Positions 1-59,304 of a stretch of 64,000 nucleotides of DNA are shown here, piece after piece (the first letter of the stretch is position 1; each line of letters begins with the position of its first letter). Location: NCBI GenBank assembly GCA_009869945.1, contig WIXG01000314.1:1-64000 (forward strand), written 5' to 3'. The position numbers were made by a program, and so were the translations under genes. The notes beneath the pieces are model-generated. The model did not search any database, was not told the DNA's origin, and saw only the letters and a program-made list of their open reading frames with translations. The DNA is from Mesaphorura yosii. Lineage: Eukaryota > Arthropoda > Collembola > Poduromorpha > Tullbergiidae.

Positions 1-234
1 TTGTAGTTCCATTCGTTGGCCAAGGATCGTGAGTCGTTGGTGGATGTACCGTGGTCCCGTTTGTCGTGCCATTTTCATTAGTCGTTGTGGGATAGATTGT
101 AGTTCCATTCGTTGGCCAAGAATCGTGGGTCGTTGGTGGATAGATTGTAGTTCCATTCGTTGGCCAAGGATCGTGAGTTGTAGATGGATGCACCGTGGTC
201 CCGTTTGTAGGCTCCGGAAAATGAGTACTTGTTC
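1..234 (-). repeat. Imperfect tandem repeat coding for PTTHDPWPTNGTT units
   Basis: Units of about 45-48 bp recur four times with small substitutions, including a shorter unit reading NENGTTNGTTVHP. The period matches whole codons, so length change would keep the protein frame. The array continues beyond the window. Confidence 0.85.
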
Positions 235-1070: not shown

Positions 1071-2150
1071 TTAGGAAAGCATTTCATGAGTGGCGCAATG
1101 AATCCCACCGCCGCCTCCTGCCAAGGTGTCGATGGCCACCGCGACAATATCCCTGCCTGGATATAACTGACGGAGAGTGTCCTGCGCTGTGCGGTCAGCC
1201 GTAGCATCGCCGAACCGGGGAACAATCACAGCACCGTTGATGACATAATAATTCAGGTATGAAGACAGAAAGTCGTCATCGCTGGCGAGTGGGCTGCTAA
1301 TCTTGCTCGGGTCGGGTTCATAAATCTCCACGACTCGGATTCGATTGCCACGGGCGTCCGTCGCACTCTTGAGTACTTCCATTGCCTGCTCCGAGGAAAC
1401 GGCCCAAACGTCCTTTTCTTCCTCGCTGTCGTCGTCACTATCGCTTTTGCCTTTGATGTCTGTCGTTCCTTTGAATGGACGGCTGAGGACCACGACGCCA
1501 GGACTCGCAAACCTCGCAAGGGCATCAATGTGTGCGTCTGTTATGTCTCCTCCCTTAACGCCTTTTACCCAGATGACTTTGCTAATGCCTAACACGCGCT
1601 TGAGGTCTTGCTCTAATTCATCGCGACTCCGGTTTGGGTTTCGATTATCGTTCACAATCGAACTTTCTGTGATTAGCAGCGTGCCTTGGCCATCCGTTTC
1701 GAGAGCCCCGCCTTCTCCAATGAAAGGAGCATTAACACCGGTCAAATTCCAGGCCGCGATTACAGCCGCCGTAACCTTCGCATCTTTACTGTGCCGTTGC
1801 TTCCTGCCCCAGCCATTAAAGTGAAGATCCACACCGAGTACTCCGTCCCGACTCTTGACAAACACCGGTAACGTGTCTCTGGCCCACAAGTCATCACTTT
1901 CAACCGATAGCACGTCAATTCCTGGTCCGAGAATCTTTGTCGCGGCAGGTACGAGGTTTGGGTTCACCAGCATAGTCACTGGCTCGTACTTTGCGATGGC
2001 GCGTGCGATACTCGCGATGTCAGCTTGAACGGGCTCCAGCAGTTTATCCCAAACTGCTCGCGAGGAAGGCCAGACCATAACAGTGCGAGTGTGGTTTTCC
2101 CATTCGGCAGGAAAGTGAATATCTTGTGGAGTGGCCGATACCGAGTGCAT
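1071..2150 (-). CDS. Agmatine deiminase-like protein (PPAD family)
   Basis: A single uninterrupted 359-residue frame. Family members hydrolyse agmatine to N-carbamoylputrescine and ammonia, feeding putrescine synthesis. Visible landmarks are FPAEWENH (13-20), the active-site stretch DLWARD (87-92), EGGALETDG (146-154), NDNRNP (167-172), DAHID (205-209) and the catalytic-cysteine motif GGGGIHC with Cys352 seven residues from the end. Length is close to the usual 340-380. There is no signal peptide, so it is probably cytosolic. Between the DAHID and Cys blocks lies an odd acidic insert rich in Ser, Asp and Glu (234-246). The family is common in bacteria, plants and some fungi but patchy in animals; together with the lack of introns in an intron-rich region this suggests horizontal acquisition, which is inference. 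The substrate is assigned by family and could be another guanidino compound. Confidence 0.88.
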   Translation of the reverse strand: MHSVSATPQDIHFPAEWENHTRTVMVWPSSRAVWDKLLEPVQADIASIARAIAKYEPVTMLVNPNLVPAATKILGPGIDVLSVESDDLWARDTLPVFVKSRDGVLGVDLHFNGWGRKQRHSKDAKVTAAVIAAWNLTGVNAPFIGEGGALETDGQGTLLITESSIVNDNRNPNRSRDELEQDLKRVLGISKVIWVKGVKGGDITDAHIDALARFASPGVVVLSRPFKGTTDIKGKSDSDDDSEEEKDVWAVSSEQAMEVLKSATDARGNRIRVVEIYEPDPSKISSPLASDDDFLSSYLNYYVINGAVIVPRFGDATADRTAQDTLRQLYPGRDIVAVAIDTLAGGGGGIHCATHEMLS

Positions 2151-2989
2151 CTTGCTTAGGCCGATTGCTGGATAGAAAAAAAAGAGATAAGTTGTGTATT
2201 AGTAAACATTCAAGATTCGAATTTCATATCGGATTCGAACAGTACAATGGCCATGTCTTACCTACTCCAACAGTTAAGGTAAGTAAAAGGGGCCATAGAC
2301 GGGCTGCCATTGTATCCATACTTAACTTGCAATACTCAATTCGAAAGATTACTTACTAGCAAGGTTTGGAAATTGACTGATATTGCGTTGCAGGACTACA
2401 CCTATAGAATGGCCACGAAGTTCTATTCCAGGGACAGTAGGAACTCGATGGCGTGACAGAGGAAAATTTCGTACTGCGACTCGGCACGACACAATGAAAT
2501 AATGCACAATCATTAGACCGATCTAATTGTTATTACACAAGGTTCGTGACGGTGACGGGTTTCGGTTGTGTCGGTTGATGCTGTACTTTTACTGCAGCAG
2601 CTGTCATTGCTGAATGCGCCTCGCAGTTCGAGTACACAACAGGTGGATAAAAGTCAAGGTTAAATGTTGTATAATTTATGACATGAGACTCTATTCCCAC
2701 ATCCGGATTTCCATATTCCATAATATCCACTTGCGAGGAACACAACAATTTGCTTTGCATATGAGCATCATGGCTCAATCTGGTCAACACGCGTGAATGT
2801 AGCTTTTCTATGCATGCGTCATTAGAGAATTGTAGGCTCGAATGCGGTTTGAGGAATCACTTCATGCCATTGAAATTGTAGGAATTGTTGGTAGCTCATT
2901 AATTAAGTTCAATTACTTTCAGGAAATGATGGATTATTAATTGTGTGAGACGGGCACAAGACTCGTGAGTATCTTGAGGCAATAGCTGC
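2151..2989. other. Divergent intergenic region, agmatine deiminase / crystallin
   Basis: It must hold the promoters of the minus-strand deiminase and the plus-strand crystallin gene. No clear TATA box was seen on either side. A minus-strand frame at 2533-2790 shows no domain or splice context. Confidence 0.4.
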
Positions 2990-3031
2990 ATGGTTTCAAT
3001 TCAAGCACGGGACGGTTTCGAAGTCCTTATT

Positions 3032-3475
3032 ATGTATCCTGGCACATATTTCCTGTTCATCTTCGCGTCTCTGCCATTGCTTCCGCTGAGTTTCAGTTCC
3101 GACGACCCGGCTAGCAGCGGATCCAACAGGCTGTATCAGTCGACCAGCGAGTCCAAAGTGGTGCTGTTTGAAAATGAATTCGGAAAAGGTTCTCATTGGT
3201 TGATTGCCATGGTCGGTGGGTTTGATTCGTTTTCGGTTTTCTTGTTCATGTATGTAGGTGCGAGGCTTTTAGTCACGACGCTGGTTCCGGGCCACTGTGA
3301 AAATATCCCGAGACCATGGCGGCACCAAATCTCATCCATTGACCCAGACAGCCAGTGTGTGGTCATTTACGAGGATGCCAATTGCGTAGGAAGAAGTGTG
3401 CGGATCAGCAGAATCATCAATCAACTCGTCAAACTTCGATTCAATGACGCAATTACATCGTTGCGTCTCTGTTAG
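3032..3475 (+). CDS. Secreted beta-gamma-crystallin domain protein
   Basis: Exons 3032-3188 and 3258-3475 flank a 69-bp intron (donor GGTTCTC, acceptor TATGTAG). Splicing gives 124 residues: a signal peptide (MYPGTYFLFIFASLPLLPLS), a short Ser-rich linker, then one beta-gamma-crystallin domain made of two Greek keys. The first key reads VVLFENEFGKGARLLV and the second CVVIYEDANCVGRSVRI, ending FNDAITSLRLC. Four cysteines in the domain could form disulphides, as expected outside the cell. The intron length is divisible by three and its frame is open, so an unspliced reading exists but breaks the first Greek key. Translation could also begin at 2990, adding 14 residues, or an upstream exon may join at the CAATTCAAG at about 3000. 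Non-lens members are often Ca2+-binding structural or defence proteins; the role here is unknown. Confidence 0.75.
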   Translation: MYPGTYFLFIFASLPLLPLSFSSDDPASSGSNRLYQSTSESKVVLFENEFGKGSHWLIAMVGGFDSFSVFLFMYVGARLLVTTLVPGHCENIPRPWRHQISSIDPDSQCVVIYEDANCVGRSVRISRIINQLVKLRFNDAITSLRLC

Positions 3476-44000: not shown

Positions 44001-44508
44001 AGCCGGCGTGGCATGACATTCCAAACCTGTCTCAATTCATTTGGCTGGTCGGTCGGTCGATTGACACTCATAAAAACTGAAATTCCAACACAGATGTAGA
44101 CATAAAAAGTTGTTTAATAAAGCTGCCGGCTCAGCCAAGCACTAGCGTTAGTATATGTAAATGTGAGCCAGGCTGTGCTATACGTATCATTCAGCACTTC
44201 AACATCGGTCTCAAACCGCACGCACTTAATCAGTGCTAGCTGGAGCAACGCTTCCCTTCCACAATTTGTCTCCATTTGACAGTTGGATTTCAGTTAGCCA
44301 CGTCGTCGTCGCACTTGCTTGCAGGCAGGCAGACACTTTGTCTCACATTTGCGTTTTGCGTTCCCGACAATAGCGTTCAGGCTGTAGGTTCCAAATTCCG
44401 CAAATTTTTCATACTTCTTGATTTTGCTGTACATTCTGTTCAGTTCTTAATATTCAATTTGTTTTATTTTCATTTGCTTGTGTTAAATCAGTGTGTTTCC
44501 TTTTCCAG
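38043..44508. other. Large gene-poor region, probable 5' UTR introns of the first desaturase
   Basis: About 6.4 kb without a convincing coding exon. Donor-like sites on the plus strand at 39384 (TTCAG then GTAAGCC), 39763 (CACTG then GTAAGTG) and 43630 (TTCAG then GTAAAT) may end alternative non-coding first exons that splice to the acceptor at 44507-44508. A TATAAATA near 41173 is another possible start. CTG-rich microsatellite-like runs lie near 43420 and 43510. The 139-codon minus-strand frame at 38841-39260 has no domain or signal peptide. Confidence 0.4.
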
Positions 44509-44514
44509 AACAAA

Positions 44515-45940
44515 ATGCCACCGATTCCAACTGAAAGCGCCGAAATCGTGCTTCGCAAGTCGGCCACCGTCACTCGGCGTGTTGAGCGTCAGGAAACTGA
44601 TGCTCCTGCAAACAACAACAATCACAGCATTACGAGCGTCAAAAGCAAGCGAATTCCAAAGGTGATTCCACACAATGATCTCAGCGCTGTCGACACCGAG
44701 GAGTTTAAGCAAGACTACGAAGCTAGTTTTAAGCCACCAACTTTTACCATTAAGGAGTTGAGGGATTGTATCCCACCGCATCTCTTTGAGAAGAATGTGC
44801 TCAAGTCATCAGCGTATGTTTTAATCAACTTGGCAATCGTCGCGGCGCTATTCTACGCTGCTACTTTTATCCAATACTTTCCGAAATCTGTGGCCTTCTT
44901 ACTCTGGGCTGGATGGTGGTGGCTGCAAGGAGTGGCGATGACCGGTAAGCTGAAATACTTAAAATAAGCCAATCGCCAATGATGAGTTTGCTGATGATCT
45001 TATCTGGCTTCAGGAGTTTGGGTTCTGGCTCACGAATGTGGACATCAAGCATTCTCCGACTCCAAGACTATCAACAACACCGTTGGCTTCATTCTCCACA
45101 CTGCGCTTCTGGTGCCGTACCATCCGTGGCGCATTACCCACGCCCAACATCATGCCTCTACTGCTCACATCGGGCAAGACCAAGTCTTTGTCCCGAAACG
45201 ACGCGCAGAAGTGCGTCCGTCTGAAAAGAAGCACTCGGCATGGGAAGAAGCGTGGGAGACAAGTCCCATTTATGCCTTCATCACCGTCATGACGTATCTG
45301 CTCTTTGGATGGCCTGCTTATCTCTTTGCTCACAAATCAGGACAGCGATACGCACAACAAGCAAATCATTTCAATCCGTCCGCGCCGATTTTCGAGAAAC
45401 GGCACTACTTTCAAGTCCTGGCGTCAGACGCTGGTCTTCTGGTCATGCTTGGATTACTGGGCTACTTTTCGTACGCCACCTCATTCTGGACTGTGATGAA
45501 ATACTATGGAATTCCATACTTGTGGGTCAATGCTTGGTTGGTGACCATCACTCTGCTTCAGCACACTGACGTCTACTTGCCCCATTACTCTGCAAACTCA
45601 TGGAATTTCGTGCGTGGTGCTCTTACGACTGTTGACCGTGATTACGGGTGGTTTCTGAATCATGGTAAAATCAATACTTTGCCAGTAAATTGTACAGCCT
45701 TAAATATTTTGTTTTCACCATTTAGCTCTCCATCACATTCAAGACAGTCACGTGGCGCATCACCTCTTCTCTCAGATGCCACACTACAATGCAATCAAAG
45801 CAACTCCGTATCTGAAGGAGAAACTTGGAGACTGTTACCTGTATGACAGAACGCCGGTTTGGAAGTCGCTGCTTCGGGTGGCGAAGAACTGTGTATTTGT
45901 GGAGGACAATGGTGATGTGCTCTTCTACAGGAACAAATAG
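44515..45940 (+). CDS. Methyl-end (delta-12/omega-3-like) fatty acid desaturase, copy 1
   Basis: Exons 44515-44944, 45014-45664 and 45726-45940 encode 431 residues. The family inserts a double bond toward the methyl end of oleate or linoleate chains, using O2 and an electron donor, in the ER membrane. Three diiron-binding His boxes are intact: HECGH (150-154), HAQHH (186-190) and HVAHH (369-373). Hydrophobic stretches around 105-140 and 230-310 are membrane spans. The N-terminus is polar and has no cytochrome b5 domain. The context after box 1, [23 protein letters not shown], resembles fungal and protist delta-12 desaturases far more than insect front-end or delta-9 enzymes. A TTTTCCAG acceptor 7 bp before the ATG shows that the 5' UTR is spliced. 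Intron 2 splits the codon before the last His box. Regioselectivity cannot be read from sequence. Confidence 0.92.
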
Positions 45941-50906: not shown

Positions 50907-51703
50907 TGATCAGTTGTTAGCTTAGTTGTTTCTTTCCTTCACGATCAAAGCACGCCGAGTTAGTGGATGAAATAAGGTTTTTGGCTTTGGCTTGTCTATG
51001 GATTATGAATATGAACTTACAGATAGAGTTCACGCCACGAAACCCCACAAACCAAACCACTCGCTGCCTGCACTTCCACTCCAGCACTCCAGGGTATGTG
51101 TTATACAACGAACTGGCGTAATTTCATATCAGGCAAGCTGGTCGCAGACCTACCCAGAATAATTCGTGATTTAATTCGATTGGATAGGCAATGCTCGTAT
51201 ATTTTTGCTTCCGTTTCCACTTCACTTCCGCTCACCTTTGACGCTCCAGGCTCCAGGTTGCGCCTTCTTAGGCTGATGCTGATTACAATTTGCTGAAAGT
51301 TTCAGCAGATCATTCTTGTCGGGAAATAACGTGCTGTACTTAAGCTTTATGATTTATGAACTGTGCTTTCACTCGCAAACGTAGGAAAAGTTAACAACAC
51401 ACAGTTAGTCACAATACGTTAATACCATTGATTCGTCAACGTTCACAGGTACTGCTTGATTGATTCAGCCATACGATCCGAATACGACGGATTATAAAGG
51501 TACGATTTGGTTACGAATTACGAATGGCTGTTACGTAAATAAATACATGCCGACAAAAAATGAAAACAACATTACGACCACAAGACCACATGCACAGCTC
51601 TTTCACACATGCGCTCGAACTCTGCTGCGTAAATGTCGAATGCGTCCGTCCTTGAAAGCCTCTTTGTTCCATTGGCTAATTTCCGGATCCCTTTTGTTAT
51701 TGC
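50907..51703. other. Bidirectional region between eIF5B and desaturase 2
   Basis: It holds the eIF5B 5' UTR, with a probable intron from about 51021, and the 5' UTR of desaturase 2, whose acceptor is TTATTGCAG ending at 51705. A possible upstream donor is CACAG then GTACTG at 51449. No TATA box is evident. Confidence 0.45.
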
Positions 51704-51711
51704 AGAGCGAT

Positions 51712-53160
51712 ATGGCCCCAACCCCGACGGAAATCACGGAGGAAGTCAAGGTCACACTCCGTCCAAGTGCCGCTGCGGCCCTTAATGGCAGTCCCAATGG
51801 CCTGAAAACCAGAGCCAGCACCACAACGGTCAATGGAACGAAACCTGTTGCAGGGAGAAAGAGCCGGCCCCCCCTGAACGACGTGCAAAAAGTGATCCAG
51901 AAGGTTGAATACCTCGAGGAGTACGAAAAGATCTACGAACCACCAGAATTCTCGATTAAAGAGCTCCGGAATGCTGTGCCGGCGCACTTGTTCGAGAAAA
52001 GTCTCTTCAAATCCAGCATGTACACGATTGTCAATCTTGTTGCGATTGCGGCGATGTTCTATGCGGCGACCTTCATCGACTACTTGCCATTCAGCCTGAG
52101 AATCATTGCCTGGCCGGTGTATTGGTGGTTCCAAGGTAATTTGTACTCTTCACATTATATTTTACGAATCATAGCATATAATGCTTAAAGTCTTTTCCGT
52201 CCAGGCGTGGGTGGAGTGGGAATTTGGATCCTGGCTCATGAATGCGGGCATCAATCCTTCTCGGACTCGAAGACAATCAACAACACGGCTGGATTCTTTC
52301 TTCACACGCTCGTGCTGGTACCGTACCACTCCTGGCGGATCTCACATTCCCAGCATCACGCATCCACCGCTAACATGAATGGGGATCAAGCTTACGTGCC
52401 ACGAACTAGATCTGAATATAAGACATGGGGAGATCCGCCCAGTGCATGGGCAGAGGCGATTGAGTCCACTCCGATCTTCGCGTTTGTGACAATAGTTGGC
52501 ATGCTCTTGTTTGGATGGCCGGCGTACTTCTTCGTAAGCATTGCTAAATTAAAGTGCATTGACGCACAGCCGTTTAATCATTTAATGCCTTGACCTTGTT
52601 TACAGACCAACATGTCTGGCCAAAGCTATCCTGGTCGATGGACGACCCATTTCCACCCATCTTCTCCCATCTTTCAGGAACGGCACAGATACCAGGTGCT
52701 TGCCTCGGACCTCGGCATACTCTGCTGGCTGGGACTGCTCTTCTGGTGGGGACAAGAGACCTCTTTCTGGACAGTGACCAAGTACTACGGGATCCCGTAC
52801 TTGATTGTGAACGCCTGGCTCGTCATCATAACGTTTCTGCAGCACACTGACGTGTACTTGCCCCACTACTCGGATAAGTCCTGGAACTTCGTGCGTGGAG
52901 CCTTGGCCACCGTGGACCGGGATTACGGGTGGTTTCTGAATCATGCCTTTCATCACATTCATGACAGCCACGTAGCTCACCATCTCTTCTCCCAAATGCC
53001 ATTCTACAACGCGATCAAGGCGACGCCGTATCTGAAGGCATACCTGGGCGAGTACTACTTCTATGACCAGACTCCGGTCTGGAAGGCCATGTGGAGAGCA
53101 GTGCGGAGGTGTCGGTACGTCGAGAATGAGGGCGACGTACTTTTCTACCACCAGAAGTAA
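51712..53160 (+). CDS. Methyl-end (delta-12/omega-3-like) fatty acid desaturase, copy 2
   Basis: Exons 51712-52135, 52205-52533 and 52606-53160 encode 435 residues. His boxes are HECGH (153-157), HSQHH (189-193) and HVAHH (373-377). It shares with copy 1 the pre-membrane motif FSIKELRNAVPAHLFEKS, the LVPYHSW stretch, [12 protein letters not shown] and the C-terminus ending NEGDVLFYHQK. The N-terminal 60 residues diverge. Intron 1 is at the same place as in copy 1 (after WWFQG); intron 2 is different, lying after WPAYFF, and the copy 1 site before the third box is uninterrupted here. A spliced 5' UTR is indicated by the acceptor 6 bp before the ATG. Two copies might differ in specificity (delta-12 versus omega-3) or in expression, but this is inference. 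Confidence 0.93.
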
Positions 53161-55733: not shown

Positions 55734-56893
55734 ATGGCCACCAGGGCGGAAGCCGCCGCCCTCCTGGAGTTCCTCCAGACCATGTTCTTGTACTACATGG
55801 AGATCTCAGCCATTTTCATCTACGTTTGGACTGAAAAACTGTACCGCTTCTTCGTCCCAAGACCACTCAAATCACTAGCGAACGAAGTGATTCTGGTGAG
55901 TTGTTGCTACTAATGGCATGAAAGTTGATTGGACGTGTCTGCAACTTGATTCTGAATCAGATTACTGGCACCGGAAACGGAATCGGGAAGCAGATCGCGC
56001 TGCAACTCGCCGACACTGCGCCAACTGCCAAATTCGTTTGTTGGGACGTGGAGACCAATGCCAACGAACAGACTATTGCTGAACTGAAGCAGAAGAACGT
56101 TGCTGCATACGGGTACACAGTGGACGTGTCCGACCGGGAACAAATAGCACGCACGGCAGAGCAGATTAGAACCGAGGTTGGCGACGTCACGGTGCTCGTG
56201 AACAACGCTGGAATCGCACCGGCCGGTACGTTCCTTTACCAGAAGCCGGAAGTCATCGAGAAAATCATAAAAATCAACGCCTTAGCAAGTTTCTGGACGA
56301 TCAAGGAATTTCTGCCGACAATGATCAAGAGGAATCACGGCCACGTCGTCACCATCGCTTCCATTTCGTCGTACCTGCCCATGCGGGAGCTGGTCGCGTA
56401 CTCCAGCTCAAAGTGTTGCCTGAACGGATTCATTGAAGCACTCAAGGCTGAAATCCGGTTCCTGCCCTCGCGGCCGTACAACGTCCACTTCACGACCGTG
56501 TACCCGATCATTGTCACAACTCGGCTATTTAATCAGGTCGTTCTGAAGCCTCGCTGGGAGGGAATGGTGCCTGTCATATCGCCTGAGTACGTGGCCGAGA
56601 AAACGATTGAAGGATTCCGGCAGAATTATGAGCACCTCTTCTTGCCGCCAAGCGCTCAGATTCTCGCCATTTGCAGGTACAATCATTATGAGTCCTCAAT
56701 TAATTACTGAATTCACTCCTAAACTGACCTTTTGATTCATAGAACTTTATTTCCGACGGAGATTTTGAGGAAGTTTGAGGAAGACATCCTGACGTGCGGA
56801 ATCACATATTTGCAAGGCCATGGGACTGGAATGGATATGAACGCAAACGGCAGTACTGTTCTCAGCAATGGTAATGGAGTTGGCCCGAAATAG
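55734..56893 (+). CDS. Membrane-anchored short-chain dehydrogenase (SDR16C-like), copy 1
   Basis: Exons 55734-55895, 55961-56676 and 56743-56893 encode 342 residues. Exon 1 supplies an N-terminal hydrophobic anchor (FLYYMEISAIFIYVWTEKLY). The Rossmann motif TGTGNGIG (56-63) binds NAD(P), NNAG lies at 135-138, and the catalytic Ser188, Tyr201 and Lys205 are in place (YSSSK). These features place it with the 17-beta-HSD11/13, RDHE2 and related SDR16C enzymes of ER and lipid droplets, which oxidise retinols, steroids or other lipids. The C-terminal 35 residues, ending NGNGVGPK, are low in complexity and unlike copy 2. The substrate cannot be deduced. It is the first of a tandem pair 1.2 kb apart. 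Confidence 0.9.
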
Positions 56894-58074: not shown

Positions 58075-59304
58075 ATGAATTTGCTCTCGGTTCCGAAGCA
58101 ACTGGTGGAGATCGTCTTCGAATTGATTTCCCTGCTGGTTTACATTGTGTACCTGTATAGTGCCAAATTATTCCGGGTCTTTGTGTCCCGGCCTCTCAAA
58201 TCATTGGATGGAGAGATCATTCTGGTAAGCAACCAATCATCTCTCCCGTGTAAAATTGCTGAGCACTGCCTGTAATTATGTTTCTTGTGTAGATTACGGG
58301 CACCGGGAATGGAATTGGGCGGCAGCTGGCCCTACAGCTTGCTGACGCAGCTCCGAAGGCCAAATTCGTATGCTGGGACGTGGAGGTCAAATCGAACGAA
58401 GAAACAGTGGCAGATATGAAACGGAAAAATGTAGAGGCTCACGCTTATCAAGTGGATATCTCGGACAGAGAGGCAGTGTCACAGATGGCACGAAAGGTTA
58501 AGATTAACAGAAAATGACCTGTGATCTGTGATCTCATGAGCAATGGTTAATTATGGCTTGCGTCATTTCTTGTCAGGTCCGGAATGACGTGGGCGATGTT
58601 ACTGTCGTCATCAACAACGCCGGCATTTGTCCTACCGGACCCTTTCTGCTCCAAAAACCTGAGTCGATTGAGAAAACCTTCGAAGTCAATCTGTTCGCTC
58701 ATTTCTGGATTCTGTCCGAGGTCCTACCGCAGATGATCCGAAATAATCACGGGCACATTGTGACCACTGCCTCGCTTTCGTCCGCCCTCCCTTGCCGTGA
58801 CATTGCATGTTACTCTGCCTCCAAGCACGCTGTCCATGGATTCGTAGATGCACTCAAGCGTGAACTGCGCGTTCACCCTGCCAAGCCCAGGAACATTCAT
58901 TTCACGACTGTGTATCCCGTCGTGGTCCAGACTCGGATTTCTGACCCAGTCGTAATGCGGCCTCGATTCCCAATCATATTTCCGCCCCACATGACAGCCG
59001 AGTACGTGGCGAAGAAGGCGATTCAAGGGTTAAGGCAGAATTACGAGTACATATACGTGCCACCGTCTTCGCAGCTTTTGGCACTTGCCAGGTAAACAAT
59101 TCACAGCCTGTAATTATTGTTTTGAACCGAGTCTCACAGATTATTTTGTGTTCCAGTTGCCTGCTTCCCTTCGAAATTCAGCAAAAGGTTGAGGACGGCC
59201 TGTTTGGCTGTGAGCTCGAGCACTTGCTCCTGGACCAGAACGAAGTGAAAGAGTATCGCAGCATCAGCAGCAGAAATGACGCTCAAAACGGGAAGTCTCA
59301 CTAA
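58075..59304 (+). CDS. Membrane-anchored short-chain dehydrogenase (SDR16C-like), copy 2
   Basis: Exons 58075-58224, 58293-58496, 58577-59091 and 59157-59304 encode 338 residues. The anchor is VEIVFELISLLVYIVYLYSAKLF. TGTGNGIG (52-59), NNAG (131-134), Ser184, Tyr197 and Lys201 (YSASK) form an intact active site. The start of exon 2 is identical in placement to copy 1 (EIIL-ITGTGNG), as is the last junction after ILA/LLA; the extra intron (ARK-VRNDVGD) is unique to this copy. The C-terminus (SCLLPFEIQQKVEDGLFG) retains the typical family tail better than copy 1. An NAD(P)-dependent lipid, retinoid or steroid oxidoreductase on ER or lipid droplets is expected; the substrate is unknown. Confidence 0.92.

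Follow-up and report, generated by a model that had tools for sequence, protein, structure and literature searches.

Gene Structure and Family Membership

The window analyzed here, that is, the whole stretch of 64,000 nucleotides at the start of contig WIXG01000314.1 of the collembolan Mesaphorura yosii (assembly GCA_009869945.1), carries a deiminase-like gene on its minus strand with an open frame of 359 codons, read as 359 amino acids (Table 1). The frame belongs to the PAD_porph family (PF04371), whose profile it matches with 342.1 bits (E 4.3e-102; curated cut-off 25 bits) nearly from end to end (positions 1-319 of 321), and no second match was found in the whole assembly (93 Mb, 1127 contigs). 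A preliminary description had read it as an intronless agmatine deiminase bearing the landmarks of PPAD, and the latter are in place: Cys352 is present, DAHID forms residues 205-209, and the predicted structure shows a pentein fold. Each of the five residues that are catalytic by homology (Table 1) is also found in all 22 close and all 28 distant homologues aligned; their roles are assigned from family knowledge and the available text of PMC4487231. An acidic insert was modeled with low confidence (predicted local distance difference test, pLDDT, below 50 at residues 232-238). The protein furthermore contains three N-glycosylation sequons, which would fit a secretory protein and are lacking altogether in 17 of the 22 close bacterial rows. 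Its single Cys was also considered as a mark of secretion and dropped as not distinctive, 3 of the 22 close bacterial rows likewise having one.

Table 1. Coordinates of the deiminase gene and of other features of the window.
Feature	Position	Strand	Remarks
PAD_porph frame of the preliminary description, 359 amino acids	1071..2150	-	Asp92, His207, Asp209, Asn300, Cys352 catalytic by homology
Predicted exon 1, 58 nt coding	2262..2319	-	start codon and most of the putative signal peptide (MDTMAARLWPLLLTLTVGV-)
Predicted phase-1 intron, 94 bp	2168..2261	-	GTAAGA donor, branch-like TACTAAT, polypyrimidine tract, CAG acceptor
Predicted exon 2	1071..2167	-	end of putative signal peptide, entire deiminase domain, stop codon
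Acidic insert, residues 231-245	1416..1460	-	missing from all six rows displayed (five bacterial, one Arabidopsis)
AATAAA	978..983	-	possible polyadenylation signal, about 90 bp past the stop
TCAGTC	2375..2380	-	possible initiator of the arthropod type
48-bp tandem repeat, 3.9 copies	1..189		in the mucin-like neighbor
"Crystallin" frame	2990..3475		
Fatty-acid desaturase (PF00487) match	44491..45846	+	
eIF5B-like frame, 923 codons	48135..50906	-	uninterrupted
Fatty-acid desaturase (PF00487) match	51460..53160	+	
Short-chain-dehydrogenase-like frame	55925..56710	+	PF00106 match
Short-chain-dehydrogenase-like frame	58553..59095	+	

The view that the gene has no intron had to be given up. Immediately 5' of the first ATG of the frame lies the acceptor TTTTTTTTCTATCCAG (CAG at 2168) with TACTAAT ahead of it. 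Further upstream, a short exon opened by the ATG at 2319 runs up to a GTAAGA donor at 2261; this ATG has A at position -3 and G at position +4. The joined coding sequence stays in frame (MDTMAARLWPLLLTLTVGVAIGLSK-MHSVSATPQ...) and would give a product of 384 amino acids, the N-terminus of which was judged by eye to be a signal peptide, with a hydrophobicity of 2.31 across 12 residues and small residues preceding a likely cleavage after SVSA. When the 400 bp upstream were subjected to 2000 dinucleotide shuffles, an in-frame two-exon model arose in 14 and a hydrophobic one in 3; since the criteria were fixed after the model had been seen, this result serves as a guide rather than as a clean p-value. 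An intron in the 5' untranslated region had been suggested as something to look for; the one predicted here would instead lie inside the coding sequence. Absence of introns would in any case have been weak evidence because the eIF5B-like gene in the window is also a single unbroken frame, and the contrast with multi-intron neighbors drawn in the preliminary description is weak for the same reason.

Relatives and Phylogenetic Placement

A single scan across bacterial and archaeal genomes yielded 58 loci. The closest relatives found are actinomycetes, 20 of which, all in the close clade, share 50-58 % identity with the window protein. Among 396 genomes drawn evenly from the phylum to which the Nocardia genome belongs, 49 gave matches, none of them above 58 %. 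Nine stretches matched in a pattern search for viral relatives, of which none was confirmed. In a tree of 84 rows (the window protein, 50 of the scan's 58 loci, 31 from further draws, and two plant sequences), the window protein is placed among bacterial sequences in a clade of 23, together with 22 actinomycete rows (support 100/99), and groups with 14 of these 22 (98/93). A grouping with the plant agmatine deiminases was rejected (p-AU 3e-36).

That the window protein is nested among the actinomycete rows is likely, though not proven, because it shares His355, three residues past the catalytic Cys, with these 14 nearest rows (motif HC(A/S)TH), whereas Gln is found in the other 8 and in 28 of 28 distant rows. 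Two further differences separate the close from the distant type: at position 206 all 28 distant rows and Arabidopsis have Gly, the close rows (22) show Ala, Cys, or Tyr, and the window protein has Ala, while Glu151 and Gln118, common to all 22 close rows, do not belong to the four commonest residues at these sites in the distant ones.

Export of the Bacterial Relatives

Tat-like leaders, that is, twin-arginine, hydrophobic, and often with a lipobox, precede 18 of the 22 genes of the close clade compared to 0 of 28 distant actinomycete homologues, under a rule (RR plus a hydrophobicity of at least 1.6) whose thresholds were set by us and with start codons not resolved. By hydrophobicity alone, leaders are seen in 18 of 22 close and 1 of 28 distant rows. 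The exported type includes an Aeromonas row (L028), and one Agromyces genome carries both types (loci L010/L082 and L083). We conclude that the animal gene most likely descends from the exported branch and that its putative signal exon would keep the enzyme exported.

The gene context in bacteria is mixed and gives only a hint. A family-5 (peptide-type) solute-binding protein lies at most two genes downstream in three of four Microbacteriaceae loci (L010, L015, and L016, not L026), thiolase-type genes adjoin the Nocardia copies L002, L005, L007, and L009, and TetR genes stand beside several bacterial copies. About 20 distinct bacterial neighbor frames were scanned, several of which had no match. 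A DUF4436 (PF14494) gene was also seen directly after the exported deiminase at the actinomycete loci L013, L016, and L026.

Host Origin and Probable Route of Transfer

The GC content at third codon positions (GC3) of the window gene is 0.54, compared to 0.56 for the eIF5B-like frame and 0.82-0.99 for 20 close bacterial genes. To its left, 129 bp of the flank recur on contig C194 at 91 % identity, and to its right lies an XPG_N gene; the presence of an insect-cuticle (PF00379) protein fits an arthropod. The gene thus combines a predicted intron and signal exon with host-like composition and flanks. Its flanks had already been invoked against contamination, a conclusion that is upheld by GC3 and the flanks. 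The frame of the supposed crystallin neighbor gave no Pfam match at E 0.001, and the mucin-like neighbor was recognized only by eye and as a tandem repeat, part of which recurs on C194 at 91 %. Bacterial contamination or a chimeric contig, to which the position of the gene close to a contig end might point, is extremely improbable in view of the predicted intron and signal exon, the difference in GC3, an identity of at most 58 % to any bacterial protein found, and the flanks on both sides.

Because of the place in the tree, the rejected plant grouping, and the host-like GC3, a transfer from bacteria to an animal appears well supported and contamination unlikely; the horizontal transfer proposed in the preliminary description thus stands. 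We consider it likely that an exported, actinomycete-type guanidine-deiminase gene moved horizontally into an arthropod-like lineage and became an animal gene. After its entry, a host-type exon for a signal peptide, spliced via the phase-1 intron, would have replaced the bacterial leader, and the base composition would have shifted toward that of the host.

Several points weigh against this view. The contig, 93 kb long, begins just 1 kb away from the gene, and splicing of the 94-bp intron is predicted from genomic sequence alone. The scan patterns were derived from the query itself, for which reason the sample of 58 loci leans to close kin, and the tree was built without fungal and other animal homologues. 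Moreover, a tree with the window protein outside the 22 actinomycete rows, as their sister, was not rejected (p-AU 0.199), and the branch of the window protein is long (0.65). Given this branch length and the fully host-like composition, the transfer need not be recent. Both also speak for an alternative, namely that the gene arrived via an intermediate, for example, a fungus with an actinomycete gene, or goes back to one older acquisition common to many living arthropods. In the tree of Undheim and Jenner (PMC7864903), moreover, four branches of fungi and a sequence from an ant stand among bacterial peptidylarginine deiminases (PADs). With one copy only in this genome as a point against it, we regard such a history as unlikely, albeit as a serious contender.

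Catalysis and Possible Substrates

By homology, Asp92 and Asp209 would hold the guanidinium group, the carbon of which would be attacked by Cys352 with loss of ammonia, and His207 together with Asn300 may then help water to release the ureido product. Because the gene appears to have gained a signal for export of animal type, its product would most likely enter the secretory pathway and act extracellularly, be it in the gut lumen, in a gland secretion, or at the surface.

The preliminary description had instead envisaged an ordinary cytosolic, intronless agmatine deiminase that opens a route from arginine via agmatine to putrescine. The sequence-nearest solved structures are indeed plant agmatine deiminases (E 5e-56), TIGR03380 matches with 251.5 bits, and the internal ATG at 2150 could serve as the start. 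However, the Gly206 of that type is Ala in the window protein, a signal exon is predicted, and most of the close relatives are exported and deviate in residues of the active site. The TIGR03380 score also falls short of the equivalog cut-off (381.8), which counts little: in the six genomes searched, even the distant-type copies stayed below it and the best match scored 346.6 bits, so this is a weak test. In the same genome, exon-by-exon scoring revealed no AguB-grade amidase (best 85.9 vs 410.25 bits), and no strong SpeA match was found among four of nine decarboxylase stretches. We therefore regard a cytosolic agmatine deiminase as improbable and correct the earlier interpretation, a polyamine route not being supported by the sequence. 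Another stretch of this genome (L072, contig C255, 100028-100246) has diaminopimelate decarboxylase (TIGR01048) as its best NCBIfam match, with 70.7 bits and E 8e-20, below the cut-off.

A secreted peptidylarginine deiminase of the PPAD or centipede (centiPAD) type, which would modify proteins in a gland secretion such as saliva or venom, is compatible with the predicted secretion and the common Pfam family. Two further points lead in this direction, namely the peptide-type binding protein near three of four Microbacteriaceae genes and the Aeromonas row in the exported type, this genus being among the kin of one centiPAD in the available text of PMC7864903. Such a role nevertheless seems rather unlikely to us. 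As to the substrate, there is about an even chance that the enzyme acts on small guanidino compounds or on peptides with exposed arginine, derived from food or microbes.

Other Genes in the Window

Two neighboring genes match fatty-acid desaturases (Table 1) and share a motif that we presume to be that of plant/fungal-type delta-12 or methyl-end desaturases; horizontal transfer may be worth considering for both of them as well. Two similar short-chain-dehydrogenase-like frames stand in tandem, the PF00106 match having been tested for the first only.

Comparison with Known Systems

No transfer of an agmatine deiminase gene to tardigrades was found in the literature, the publications on agmatine deiminase and arthropods concern a bacterial case only, and those on horizontally moved insect genes contain no animal case of this enzyme by title. 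The enzyme is also absent among the listed matches on transfer with mites, springtails, and rotifers, and the word "deiminase" does not appear in the main texts, as opposed to the supplements, of a published transfer compendium and a gene-fusion paper. Neither a characterized exported actinomycete deiminase nor a further arthropod case of transfer in this family was among the matches listed. Agmatine deiminases (AguA) such as those of Arabidopsis (3h7c) and E. faecalis (2jer) differ from the window protein, which does not have the glycine of TxGHxD.

The exported actinomycete PAD_porph proteins of Nocardia, Agromyces, Microbacterium, Amycolatopsis, and Streptomyces (loci L002-L022, L025, L085, and L086; 50-58 % identity) have the same catalytic residues and are mostly exported as well, but differ in their Tat or lipoprotein leader, a GC3 of 0.82-0.99, and the lack of the acidic insert (in the five rows displayed). 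PPAD of Porphyromonas gingivalis resembles the window protein in its pentein fold, in the residues Asp-His-Asp-Asn-Cys (for PPAD from family knowledge), and in its export, which for the window protein is a prediction. Arg152 and Arg154 of PPAD bind the substrate carboxylate; Lys117 and Gln118 were considered as their putative counterparts in the window protein. The C-terminal Ig-like domain of PPAD described in the available part of PMC4487231 is not found in the window protein, which ends 7 residues past Cys352. Vertebrate-type PADI has extra N-terminal domains ahead of the catalytic domain, which are not seen in the window protein; PADI is set apart from the pPAD type in the accessible text of PMC8826395, according to which worms and flies are without citrullinating PADIs.

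A close parallel is offered by the centiPADs. As far as the text of PMC7864903 was available, two transfers of bacterial PADs into centipedes were inferred there, with products found in venom, so that acquisitions of this family by arthropods have already been published; the window gene is set apart by its kinship with the actinomycete type and by its putative signal exon and intron. Both systems would thus comprise a bacterial PAD-family gene in an arthropod with a secreted product, the secretion being a prediction in the present case. The donors named for the centiPADs are Gammaproteobacteria and Bacteroidetes, whereas the window gene is of the actinomycete type and known from genome sequence alone. 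Its signal exon and intron were predicted in a genome, against which the centiPADs could not be checked. If our interpretation is true, an actinomycete-type case would join the published transfers and provide an extracellular guanidine deiminase in an arthropod-like animal. It would also illustrate a route of domestication in which the catalytic body stays one exon and a host-type exon brings the export signal. Tentatively, and with rather less than even confidence, we propose that arthropods have captured exported bacterial guanidine deiminases repeatedly, and that the present gene represents an independent actinomycete capture, in which the Tat/lipoprotein leader was swapped for a host signal exon via a new phase-1 intron and whose product may act extracellularly on arginine-ending peptides or agmatine.
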